From Rhodothermales bacterium (GTDB lineage: Bacteria > Bacteroidota > Rhodothermia > Rhodothermales > Bin80), in contig JAJECE010000012.1 in NCBI GenBank assembly GCA_022822185.1, positions 1-45,775 of the forward strand: a stretch of DNA of 45,775 nucleotides, given 5' to 3'. Shown here one piece after another: positions 38,212 to 44,258 of this stretch. Below the pieces are notes generated by a model. It saw nothing but the letters and a program-made list of their open reading frames with translations, searched no databases and had not been told where the DNA came from. The translations under genes were made by a program, and so were the position numbers. The stretch's first letter is position 1. The number at the start of each line of letters is the position of its first letter.

Positions 38212-38274
38212 CATGTCACTGGTGCCTGCGGGAATGCTGTTCGTGCAAAATTTGACGTATCATGTCACTGGTGC
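38212..38274 (+). repeat. 14-bp direct repeat at the receptor gene start
   Basis: CATGTCACTGGTGC is found at 38212-38225, containing the start codon, and exactly again at 38261-38274, 49 bases later. A slip or recombination between the copies would remove 49 bases and bring in a stop codon after seven codons, switching the gene off. Confidence 0.5.
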
Positions 38275-40144
38275 AGTGCTTCTGACCTCTTTGATTGTGA
38301 TTCCTCAGAGCACTGCACAGCAAAGTAAACCGGCAGGAAACAGATCTGACTGGGAGGGGCTAAAAGCCCTCTATATCGAAACCGGCGGGGAAAACTGGAC
38401 GAATAATTCTAACTGGGATGTCACGCTTGAAGATCCTCCCCCTCCTGCACAGTTAACCACATGGCACGGTGTCACACTTACAGACGGGCGCGTTACCGAA
38501 TTAGATCTCTCAAATAATGGATTATCGGGAATTCTTCCCGCTGAAGTGGGAAATCTGTCGTATCTGCGTGTCCTTGATCTCCAGGAAAATGATTTATCCG
38601 GTTCCATTGGTGCCTGGATCGGGACGCTTACTGCGCTAGTCAAACTGCATCTCCAGCAAAACCAATTATCGGGCCCGATCCCTGATGAAATCGAGAACCT
38701 GACTCATCTTGAATATCTAAACCTGCGGGGGAATCGTCTGGAAGGCATGATTCCGGAGGGTCTGGGAAATTTGCAGCAACTCCAGGGGATTTGGTTGCAC
38801 GCGAACCGGCTATCTGGTCCCATCCCGCAACATGTACTGAATCTCCCGAATTTGGGCTGGTTATGGGTAGGGGAGAACCCGGATCTATCAGGAATTCTTT
38901 CCCTGACAGATCCAAGTCGGACTGCGGCCATTGACTTCTATTTAGAACAAACGGGCCTCTGCATTGATCGGCGAAGTACCGAAGTTGCAGATGTCTCAGT
39001 CCCGGACTATGCCTGCCTGCTGGAAGAAGAATGGAAGGCACTCGAGATGCTCTATCTCGCGACGGATGGTGACCATTGGATTGCCAATACCGGCTGGAAT
39101 TTTGAAAACCGCCCAAAAGCCGAAACCGTTGAAGATTGGTATGGCATTACCATCAAGGATGGATCAATTCAGGCACTGCGACTTGAACTGAATCACCTTG
39201 ACGGGATTCTGCCCCCTGAACTTGGAGCCTTAACGAAGCTTGAGTTCCTGCGCATTGATGGAAACCCTCTCTATGGACCCATTCCAGATGAACTTTCTTC
39301 GCTCGCAGGCCTGAAGGTCCTTTCTGCCGCAGAAACACAACTGTGTGCACCATCCACGGCTGCCGTGCAATTATGGCTGCGGAGAATCCCCACCGTGCTC
39401 GAACTTGACGATTGCACCAGCATCGAAGCAGCCATTTCTGCTGAATATCCCCCCGGATCATGGAGGTCACTCCCTCTCTGGATGATCATAGGACTTGGGG
39501 TATTGGGAATACTGGGGACCGGTGCAGCGTTGATCGCAGCATTCAGGAAAAATAATATCCCCGAAGAGACGGAGGAAGATGAACCGGAGGCGGATCCGTA
39601 TACCGATCAATGGATGGCCATCCAGGAGCGGCTGGAAGAGTTTATCCAAATGGCAGCTTCCATGTCCACGCTTGCGGAGCAGTCGATCCACCAGAGTGAT
39701 ATTACCAGAGATTTTGCATCCGCGCTTAAAACTCTGCGTAGTGCACTGGATCAGCGGGATCTGGAAATCAAACGTCTGCAAAGAGGCCATGATAACACAG
39801 TATTCCGTAAATTTGTTACCCGCTTCATACGCGTGGATCAGGCGATCCAGTATTTTTTGCAGAATACAGCAGGCCCGGCAGATCATTTGGAGTCTATTCA
39901 ATCTCTGATGATGGACGCGTTGCAAGAGTGTGATGTACAGCAGTTTCAGCCAGAGATTGGCAGTGATTACCGGTCCGCCTTTGGGGTTGCTGAGCATCCA
40001 AAAATTTTAATCACCACCGTAGCGGAGGATGATTGCCAGATTGTTGAAATCCTGGAACCGGGCTATTTCATGCAAGGTGGCAACGAGAAAGAAGTCCTGA
40101 TTCCGGCACGTGTGGCCATATACAGATTTAAACCCGAACAATAA
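38213..40144 (+). CDS. LRR receptor with single membrane span and GrpE-like cytoplasmic tail
   Basis: Starting at the ATG at 38213 gives a 643-residue protein with a signal peptide (hydrophobic 18-32, STAQQ near 33-37). The frame is open back to 37994, but that part lacks coding character. Plant-type leucine-rich repeats of the form LxxLxLxxNxLSGxIPxxLGNL occupy 92-227, with a second block at 273-377; each is preceded by an LRR-cap-like segment with W residues. A transmembrane helix spans 420-443, then an acidic linker (450-462), a helical stretch and a GrpE-like region (502-639). The end, IVEILEPGYFMQGG...VLIPARVAIYRF, follows the GrpE beta-domain pattern. The gene is five bases ahead of an Hsp70 gene, so the tail is probably its exchange factor. 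Confidence 0.75.
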   Translation: MSLVPAGMLFVQNLTYHVTGAVLLTSLIVIPQSTAQQSKPAGNRSDWEGLKALYIETGGENWTNNSNWDVTLEDPPPPAQLTTWHGVTLTDGRVTELDLSNNGLSGILPAEVGNLSYLRVLDLQENDLSGSIGAWIGTLTALVKLHLQQNQLSGPIPDEIENLTHLEYLNLRGNRLEGMIPEGLGNLQQLQGIWLHANRLSGPIPQHVLNLPNLGWLWVGENPDLSGILSLTDPSRTAAIDFYLEQTGLCIDRRSTEVADVSVPDYACLLEEEWKALEMLYLATDGDHWIANTGWNFENRPKAETVEDWYGITIKDGSIQALRLELNHLDGILPPELGALTKLEFLRIDGNPLYGPIPDELSSLAGLKVLSAAETQLCAPSTAAVQLWLRRIPTVLELDDCTSIEAAISAEYPPGSWRSLPLWMIIGLGVLGILGTGAALIAAFRKNNIPEETEEDEPEADPYTDQWMAIQERLEEFIQMAASMSTLAEQSIHQSDITRDFASALKTLRSALDQRDLEIKRLQRGHDNTVFRKFVTRFIRVDQAIQYFLQNTAGPADHLESIQSLMMDALQECDVQQFQPEIGSDYRSAFGVAEHPKILITTVAEDDCQIVEILEPGYFMQGGNEKEVLIPARVAIYRFKPEQ

Positions 40145-41657: not shown

Positions 41658-42875
41658 ATGACCATATGCCTGATTCTGGTCGCAGTTGTTTTTTTACTTT
41701 TCTGGCTCTTTCGTGGAAGAGACTTCAGCGGCAATGCTGAAGAAGAAGGAGAACCCCCGCAGATTGCCCGTATGGATGTTCGCGTCCGTGAAGTCACGGC
41801 GGATGATTTGGTGGCAAAGCAAATCGAGGTGAAGGGACCGTTTCCCTTTGAAGCCTACGGCGAGGCCGCCGGGTTGATTGTATCCGTTTTTGATTGCACA
41901 GGGGACGAATTACATCCGGTTCTTTCGGCCGTAGAAGCCTTTCAGGAACCGTACACAATCGCCTATGATGACCGTGTAAAGGTGGGAGACATATCACCGG
42001 GAACGGGGCTTCGTATCTGGACCCCCGTCGGGATCTTCATTCCAGACATAATGCTCGGACCGCATGGAGGACACCGGCAGCTGGTCGCTGTGGTGAGACT
42101 CGTTGATGTGCATGCCAATGTGATCATTCGGAACGGGAGCGTCATTGGGGGGAGGCAAAGAATTTTTTGGACAGGAAAAGCCGAGTTCACCTGCTCCCTG
42201 GGTAAACCTGGATATATTGGATTTGAAAAGCAGCGTCGAAAACTTCAAGCGATCATGGTTAAACTGGCCGCCGCCGTTGCGATGGCAGATGGCACCATGG
42301 ATGCAGATGAACTCCAGGTCTTGCAGCAGAAAATTGAGCAGTGGCTTGAGCGGGCCGAGTCGTATTATGACGGCCTGACTGAAGCGCAGCGGACAAAATC
42401 CTATGAAAAAATTGCCCAGCATGCACTGACGAAGGCGCAAGATCATCAGATCAATACAGATGACCTGCTAAACCGCCTGCGCCGCCATGGAGATCAGAAA
42501 GTCTGGTATGAGGTGCTGGAACTGTGCATTGATGTAATGGCAGCCGATGGCATTGCAGATATAGACGAGTTGCACATCCTCCGTAAAATCGGAGATGCAT
42601 CTGGAATTGACGCAAAAGAAATTCAGAAACTGCGTGATCAGAAAATTGTTGACTTGGAAATCAAGAATCAGGGACAGACTCCCATAGAAGAGTTACTGGG
42701 CATTGATGCGGACTGGGATTTGGCAAAGATTCAACGACATCTTCGAGGGGAGTACAAGAAATGGAACAGCCGCCTCAACATGGTTTCGGAAGGGAAAGCG
42801 CGACAGAATGCCCAGATCATGCTCAATATGATCGGGGAAGCGTACAAAGATTACACTTCACAAAAAAAATCCTGA
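41658..42875 (+). CDS. Membrane-anchored TerB protein with HPD-less J-like C-terminus
   Basis: The 405-residue protein has an N-terminal membrane helix (1-19), an unknown beta-rich domain (about 38-178), a TerB-like helical domain (195-325) with two ADG(x)4(D/E)EL acidic motifs (around 210-219 and 296-305), and a C-terminal J-like domain (342-399; ELLGIDADWDLAKIQ, then KWNSRLN and MLNMIGEAY). Order TM-TerB-J recalls the DjlA co-chaperone, but the HPD tripeptide is replaced by KWN. It follows the Hsp70 gene, so it is a candidate J-protein partner using a changed contact. Confidence 0.75.
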   Translation: MTICLILVAVVFLLFWLFRGRDFSGNAEEEGEPPQIARMDVRVREVTADDLVAKQIEVKGPFPFEAYGEAAGLIVSVFDCTGDELHPVLSAVEAFQEPYTIAYDDRVKVGDISPGTGLRIWTPVGIFIPDIMLGPHGGHRQLVAVVRLVDVHANVIIRNGSVIGGRQRIFWTGKAEFTCSLGKPGYIGFEKQRRKLQAIMVKLAAAVAMADGTMDADELQVLQQKIEQWLERAESYYDGLTEAQRTKSYEKIAQHALTKAQDHQINTDDLLNRLRRHGDQKVWYEVLELCIDVMAADGIADIDELHILRKIGDASGIDAKEIQKLRDQKIVDLEIKNQGQTPIEELLGIDADWDLAKIQRHLRGEYKKWNSRLNMVSEGKARQNAQIMLNMIGEAYKDYTSQKKS

Positions 42876-43010: not shown

Positions 43011-44258
43011 ATGCCCACCGCTCCTGACGGTTCTTCCCTGCGAATTCGCGTCGAGCACTTAGATGTGGATGATGGCGAATTTTTTCAAATTGCAGTGAAG
43101 GGGAGACTCCCGGACTGTGCATATCGTAAGGATATTGATTTTGTGGTGTCCCTTTTTGATTGCAGCGGAAGTCGGGATCTTGCAATCCTTTCGGCCGAGC
43201 CCCTGCTTCAGGAGATCCATACCCCGGTTTACCAATCTCGTGAAAATGTCCGAGATAGCTACCCACGAGCAAAGGTGATCAGTTCCTGGCTGCCCATCGG
43301 GGGCTTTATGCCCGATTTTTTGATTGGCCCCCACTGGGGATTCCGAAATATCCGGGTGGTCGTGCGACTCGTGGATGTGATTGAGGATGTGGAAATTATG
43401 GTTGGAGAGGTAGTGGATGGTTTTGATGGACACCTGTGGACCGGAGAGATGACCTTTCAATGTTTCCTTCGAATGGAAGGATATACTGAAACCGCAAGTC
43501 GGCACCGGAGACTTGAATCGGTCGCACTGCGGCTGGCGGTGGCGGTGGCCATCGCTGATGGTGAGCTTGACACCAAGGAAATTGATGTCTTTCGGGATCG
43601 AATAAAATGGTGGATGGCAAATTCCCGATTCAATTTTGACGGACTGGATAAAAAACGACGCTCCACATCTTACCGGGGTATGTTAAGCCGTGCACTTTCG
43701 AGAGCCACAGAAAATAAGACCTTTGACACGGATAGGCTCCTGAAGAGATTAGATAAGGATGCAAGCCCCTACCTTTGGCGGGAACTCCTGGATCTCTGCT
43801 ATGAGGTCATGTCTGCAAACGGGATTGCCCATGCCGACCAGTTGCGTCTTATCCGCAAAATCACCGATAACGCCAACCTTGATCCAAAGGAGATTGCAAA
43901 GTTTCGGGAGCATAAAATGCTCGAATTTGAGATCAAAACCCAGGCTACGTCTGCAACCGACGAATTACTTGGAATTGACACCAGCTGGGATATTGCCAGA
44001 ATCCGAAAACACCTTCGCTGTGAATACAAGAAATGGAATGGCCGGCTCAATACTATTCCCGAGGGAAAAGCTCGCGAAAATGCGCAGGGCATCCTCAACA
44101 TGATCGGAGAAGCCTATAAAAAATATACCCTCCCAAAGCCGGCTTCTGGCGCAGACCAAACTTTGCCTGCCGCCTCCAAGACAGAAGAAATCCCCGAAGA
44201 CAGGCAAAATTCACAGGAAAATTACTGGACGCAGTTAGATCTTTTCCGTAACATCTGA
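43011..44258 (+). CDS. Soluble TerB protein with HPD-less J-like domain, paralogue of the previous gene
   Basis: The 415-residue protein begins at the ATG at 43011 (TTG at 43002 possible). It has the same layout as the preceding gene without the membrane helix: beta-rich domain 10-155, TerB 166-300 with ADGELDTKE, and J-like domain 315-372 (ELLGIDTSWDIARIR, KWNGRLN, ILNMIGEAY). The second acidic TerB motif is weakened (ANGIAHADQL). A polar 43-residue tail rich in Glu and Gln follows. It is 135 bases after its paralogue. One form is anchored and one free, so they may compete for or hand over a client or the Hsp70. Confidence 0.75.
   Translation: MPTAPDGSSLRIRVEHLDVDDGEFFQIAVKGRLPDCAYRKDIDFVVSLFDCSGSRDLAILSAEPLLQEIHTPVYQSRENVRDSYPRAKVISSWLPIGGFMPDFLIGPHWGFRNIRVVVRLVDVIEDVEIMVGEVVDGFDGHLWTGEMTFQCFLRMEGYTETASRHRRLESVALRLAVAVAIADGELDTKEIDVFRDRIKWWMANSRFNFDGLDKKRRSTSYRGMLSRALSRATENKTFDTDRLLKRLDKDASPYLWRELLDLCYEVMSANGIAHADQLRLIRKITDNANLDPKEIAKFREHKMLEFEIKTQATSATDELLGIDTSWDIARIRKHLRCEYKKWNGRLNTIPEGKARENAQGILNMIGEAYKKYTLPKPASGADQTLPAASKTEEIPEDRQNSQENYWTQLDLFRNI

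Follow-up and report, generated by a model that had tools for sequence, protein, structure and literature searches.

A divergent GrpE-type domain on the cytoplasmic tail of a leucine-rich repeat receptor, encoded next to a lidless Hsp70 in Rhodothermales

Nucleotide exchange factors are usually regarded as soluble proteins that assist Hsp70 in a housekeeping role. GrpE (PF01025) serves DnaK in this capacity and GrpEL1 serves mortalin, and the β-domain of GrpE acts as a wedge in the cleft of the nucleotide-binding domain (NBD) of the chaperone (PMC4753570, a review; PMC10803776). In Escherichia coli, the membrane protein DjlA, which has the domain order TM-TerB-J, activates the Rcs pathway together with DnaK and GrpE and thereby links chaperones to envelope signalling (PMC11709261). 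Neighbourhoods containing Hsp70 and GrpE genes have also been described among the GAP1-N2 conflict systems (PMC7159879). A TPR-DnaJ-GrpE-Hsp70-TPR gene set is present on a small Nostoc plasmid (L077), and a TPR-DnaJ-GrpE set is present on an Acaryochloris plasmid (L078). No description of a receptor-fused or membrane-anchored GrpE was found in the literature searched, which is weak evidence of novelty given that this literature lay mostly outside subscription journals.

The window analysed here is a stretch of 45,775 nucleotides from a Rhodothermales bacterium (assembly GCA_022822185.1, contig JAJECE010000012.1). It contains a conserved module that consists of a leucine-rich repeat (LRR) receptor, a lidless Hsp70 and one or two TerB proteins (two in this window) with a J-like end that lacks HPD. 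The features of the module are collected in Table 1.

Table 1. Features of the receptor-Hsp70-TerB module in the window
Feature	Coordinates	Strand	Basis or remark
LRR-TM-GrpE-like receptor	38213..40144	+	643 aa; ORF open from 37994
Signal-peptide-like segment, N-terminal	38213..38320	+	hydrophobic, ends IPQSTAQQ; cleavage inferred
LRR ectodomain	38342..39457	+	Pfam LRR_1 2e-21, LRR_8 1e-16
TM helix, residues 424-442	39482..39538	+	Kyte-Doolittle mean 2.21 over 19 residues
GrpE-like cytoplasmic domain, residues 456-643	39578..40141	+	helices, then β-domain
β-domain of GrpE-like tail (in true GrpE, the wing that touches Hsp70)	39935..40129	+	pLDDT ∼92-94 in first part; 9bls_B Z 7.7
Lidless Hsp70, NBD + linker + SBD-β, 496 aa	40150..41640	+	Pfam HSP70 4.5e-78
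TerB protein 1, membrane-anchored	41658..42875	+	Pfam TerB 1.2e-8; structure model
TerB protein 2, no TM, C-terminal QLDLF tail	43011..44258	+	Pfam TerB 3e-5

Position 38213 was taken as the likely start of the receptor in preference to the upstream 37994 because homologues, which range in length from about 420 to 660 residues, begin near a hydrophobic segment. Such segments are clear at the N termini of the homologues in genomes G009, G002 and G015. Inspection of the polypeptide reveals a signal-peptide-like segment, an LRR ectodomain built of plant-type LxGxIPxxLGxLxxLxxLxL repeats in two blocks, a single transmembrane (TM) helix and a cytoplasmic tail of ∼190-200 residues. The TM helix is kept in every receptor homologue checked and in the window is followed directly by RKN, in agreement with the positive-inside rule. 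The LRRs are nearly gone from a 418-residue homologue in G005 (L014:7763-9019), in which the TM helix and the GrpE-like tail are intact; the inner half is thus the more constant part of the receptor.

Alignment of eight tails from seven genomes revealed 33 invariant columns, including R-L, G-x-x-N and the ending I..E.GY....E...PA.V. The preliminary description of this DNA had placed a GrpE-like module with a GrpE-type β ending at residues 500-643 of the receptor. The region itself is real, and the ending, E-x-GY...vL-PA-V, is present in all eight tails, but the GrpE-like domain is longer than was first proposed and begins at about residue 456.

Searches with individual sequences gave weak to borderline scores. 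The window's own tail matched PF01025 at 15.8 bits, below the cut-off of 25.8, and NCBIfam GrpE models matched it only at E values of 0.01-0.05. Three of the eight family members did match Pfam GrpE (best value, 2.8e-6). When all six frames were searched, the paralogous tail G002:C18 scored 26.9 bits, its match running from position 8 to position 163 of the 165-position profile. Searched as a whole protein, the same tail scored 23.3 bits and therefore straddles the cut-off. A single-sequence search of the PDB with the window's tail returned only PIP5K (E 1.1), which was rejected, and no GrpE; likewise, GrpE was absent when the PDB was searched by hmmsearch with the eight-row tail profile, the matches being chance coiled coils.

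The tail profile gave no match by hhalign when the GrpEs of the host lineage (Rhodothermales) were used alone, but its similarity to known GrpEs was significant when a broad profile combining these with GrpEs of other phyla was used (p = 1.8e-4 local, 9.7e-6 global), the two profiles being collinear over the C-terminal half. The HMM-HMM score against the broad profile was 35.2. None of 300 column shuffles, in which the composition of the helical and β parts was preserved, scored higher (maximum, 23.7), and the reversed alignment scored 14.5.

A single-chain AlphaFold2 model of the tail, built with the eight-row alignment, had a mean pLDDT of 72.7 and a pTM of 0.50. Helices were predicted at tail residues 7-35, 41-67, 74-96 and 100-117, followed by a β-domain at 120-184, which is the GrpE fold order of long helix, bundle and C-terminal β-domain, with the helical part modelled at low confidence (pLDDT 54-69). 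Confidence was highest over residues 121-160 (pLDDT 92-94) and was 77-87 beyond. When 350,542 PDB chains were searched by Foldseek with this model, ranks 1 and 2 were both GrpEL1 bound to mortalin (modest E values of 0.02-0.05), so that the matches were not limited to unrelated coiled coils. Using VIA-align, the β-domain was superposed on GrpEL1 (9bls_B) over 61 residues with an rmsd of 2.3 Å, and a longer segment of the tail was superposed on E. coli GrpE (1dkg_B; Z 6.7, rmsd 5.9 Å). Further VIA-align matches to dynein, IncA and CBL covered mainly the helices and were taken as common bundles.

The weak single-sequence scores, and the predominance of unrelated bundles among the helical PDB matches, would be expected if the tail were an unrelated coiled coil joined to a small β-domain, with a likeness to GrpE that is convergent or due to chance and an Hsp70 neighbour that is coincidental. 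We consider this very improbable in view of the null test, the near-complete coverage of the Pfam model by the G002:C18 paralog, the rank of GrpEL1 in the Foldseek search and the strict linkage of the tail to an Hsp70. Taken together, the sequence and fold evidence identifies the tail as a GrpE-type domain of divergent sequence. It is named GrpE-like here and is not filed as a member of the GrpE family because its own sequence falls below the curated Pfam cut-off. In a separate observation, tandem double GrpE matches were present in reading frames of 358-513 residues in related genera (G011:C1:402117-402968, G015:C168:19454-20320 and G014:C3:17596-18486); these are apparently duplicated or enlarged canonical GrpEs.

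As the preliminary description had stated, an Hsp70 gene lies directly after the receptor gene, its reading frame beginning 5 bp past the receptor stop codon. The DLGTT, NEPTA and DLGGGTFD motifs are intact in this Hsp70, and the phosphate, connect and adenosine motifs of the ATPase domain are all present. The protein aligns with residues 1-507 of DnaK and ends there, such that the β part of the substrate-binding domain (SBD-β) is present and the helical lid (SBD-α) is absent. Apart from short tails, all complete module Hsp70 homologues end at the equivalent of DnaK residue 507. In the interdomain linker, the DVLLLD motif found in the host DnaK is missing, and the IIB hairpin is ∼10 residues shorter than its counterpart in that protein. 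The IIB region of Hsp70 has been tied to GrpE dependence. The shortened IIB loop and the missing lid of the partner Hsp70, together with the sub-threshold Pfam score of the window's tail, complicate a canonical mechanism.

A further change concerns the site at which J-domain proteins act. Two residues of DnaK pair with the HPD motif of a J domain: Arg-167 with its Asp, and Leu-391, in the linker, with its His (PMC13012618). The Arg-167 position, which is Arg in the host DnaK, is Asn, Tyr or His in every module Hsp70.

TerB protein 1 comprises a TM helix (residues 1-19), a β-sandwich (40-181), a TerB domain (186-330) and a J-like helical hairpin (343-404), and the TerB assignment is supported structurally by a match to the TerB protein 2ou3 (Z 12.1). 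The C-terminal sequence K-W-N-S-R-L-N is suggestive, by eye, of K-Y-H-P-D-R-N. A J-domain reading of the C terminus was nevertheless unsupported, with a score of 14.9 against shuffles that reached 17.8, and no Pfam DnaJ match was obtained in the TerB proteins. N-[SG]-R (NSR or NGR) occupies the would-be HPD position in nine of nine aligned TerB proteins. Loss of the HPD-R167 contact may be paired, having occurred on both the TerB side and the Hsp70 side; as no significant J-domain homology was obtained for the TerB proteins, this correspondence is no more than suggestive.

The C terminus of each of the five soluble-type TerB proteins reads QLxLF (QLDLF in three, QLKLF and QLELF in one each; window 44232-44246, L113, L114, L115 and L116), which follows a hypervariable linker rich in Pro, Gln and Ser. 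This ending could be a β-sliding-clamp binding motif, which it resembles, or an internal peptide for the Hsp70.

Given these alterations, the tail might be a GrpE-derived scaffold that binds Hsp70 without promoting exchange, serving to tether or hold the chaperone at the membrane or competing with the canonical GrpE. Strong divergence of the tail from GrpE is in keeping with such a role, as are the changes to the linker, IIB loop and Arg-167 position of the Hsp70 and the absence of HPD from its TerB/J-like partners, which may mean that the whole cycle has been re-wired. Set against this are the intact active site of the Hsp70 and the retention in every tail of the GrpE-type ending, which is also the most confidently modelled part of the domain. 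On balance, we regard a scaffold without exchange activity as rather unlikely.

Four genomes (G003, G009, G002 and G005) share the receptor-Hsp70-TerB order, which G002 carries a second time, and parts of the module cut by contig ends are present in G010 and G015. The membrane-type TerB gene of G003 is either broken or divided between contig ends. Of 114 Rhodothermales genomes, 7 contain the tail family, all within the family of the host, and the TerB family was found in six, all of which belong to the seven with the tail family. In the seventh, G015, the contig edge lies inside the Hsp70 gene; the two families thus occur together in six of six genomes in which both could be seen. No member of the tail family was detected outside the host's family, whether in these 114 genomes, among 394 genomes of the phylum or in a pattern scan of genome contigs. 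With G003 as the reference, dN/dS was lowest in the Hsp70 (0.05), intermediate in the tail core (0.22) and highest in the ectodomain (0.31); all three are under purifying selection. A scan for promoters and terminators yielded no more than chance.

The host encodes a canonical set at other loci, comprising one GrpE beside DnaJ, a full-length DnaK and two J-proteins, and the module is therefore accessory. Neighbours of the window locus are shared with G002, G005 and G003: one flank encodes a carbohydrate-binding/β-barrel-like protein or an oxidoreductase, and the other, in G002 and G005, a DsbA-like protein. The locus thus has the appearance of a stable chromosomal site. A mobile or viral origin was considered and rejected, no plasmid or viral relatives having been found.

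The surroundings of the additional copies differ. Genes for an HmaA-like SNF2 helicase and for an AAA ATPase are found near the second G002 copy (L015, G002:C18). In G005, a further locus (L111, G005:C27) has intact Hsp70 and TerB genes, with a decayed remnant of the tail, beside DNA methylase genes. These settings, and the Hsp70-GrpE neighbourhoods of GAP1-N2 systems, raise the question of whether the module belongs with such accessory systems and acts in defence or conflict, its receptor sensing phage or neighbouring cells. PADLOC matched none of the four proteins in the window, no effector domain was recognised, and the housekeeping genes around the main locus are conserved across species; a role in defence therefore seems improbable.

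Independent lines of evidence from sequence, structure and genome context support a GrpE-type module on the cytoplasmic tail of the receptor, beside an Hsp70 gene, as the preliminary description had proposed. The gene set suggests that the receptor may be able to switch the chaperone. We favour the view that this is probably a self-contained, membrane-organised Hsp70 module in which the GrpE-type tail of the receptor would gate nucleotide exchange on the neighbouring Hsp70. In the simplest reading of a GrpE-type tail beside a dedicated Hsp70, exchange and client release would take place at the receptor and would depend on its state. The LRR domain would sense something outside the cytoplasm, and the ligand, or stress, would alter presentation of the tail or its dimer state and so gate the Hsp70 cycle. 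The β-domain, on binding the lidless Hsp70, would open its nucleotide cleft, allowing recharging with ATP and release of a putative client at the membrane. The TerB/J-like proteins might serve as the cognate stimulator or adaptor, in a manner similar to DjlA, which acts with DnaK and GrpE in changing a membrane-bound signalling complex of E. coli. A more specific version is conceivable but tentative: the output of a one-pass receptor would be an exchange factor, an extracytoplasmic ligand of the LRR domain would control the ATPase cycle of the dedicated, lidless Hsp70, and the chaperone cycle itself would become a signalling switch, in the position that a kinase occupies in plants.

If the favoured view is correct, the recharging of an Hsp70 would come under the direct control of an outside signal through a conserved exchange-factor domain carried by the receptor. 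The module would also offer a compact and genetically separable system, with four genes and one dedicated Hsp70, for study of the factors that limit and direct Hsp70 cycling in the cell. The lack of a lid on the Hsp70, and a contact between HPD and R167 that is apparently lost on both sides, suggest a re-wired allosteric cycle that is testable in vitro.

Each of the described systems shares part of this arrangement. TerB protein 1 resembles DjlA in having a TM helix and a TerB domain but lacks HPD, ends in a J-like hairpin where DjlA has a J domain and carries an extra β-sandwich between the TM helix and TerB. At the level of the system, the exchange factor of the module differs from that serving DjlA in being fused to the membrane, and the Hsp70 is both dedicated and lidless. 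The GAP1-N2 systems are comparable in that an accessory Hsp70-GrpE set stands apart from the main DnaK system, as are the Nostoc and Acaryochloris plasmids in carrying a small dedicated chaperone or exchange-factor set off the main DnaK system. In all three, by contrast, the exchange factors are annotated as stand-alone GrpEs, and fusion to a receptor was not seen there. The plant LRR receptor kinases share with the receptor an LRR ectodomain, a single TM helix and a cytoplasmic output domain, although the output here is a GrpE-like domain and the likeness is one of plan, with no descent implied. The closest counterparts of the tail remain GrpE and GrpEL1, with which it shares the order of its structural elements and the motif of its ending, and the adjoining Hsp70 gene extends this likeness to genome context. 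Whereas the canonical GrpE is a soluble dimer, of which the host itself has one, the module carries its divergent GrpE-like domain in the same polypeptide as an LRR ectodomain, on the other side of a TM helix.
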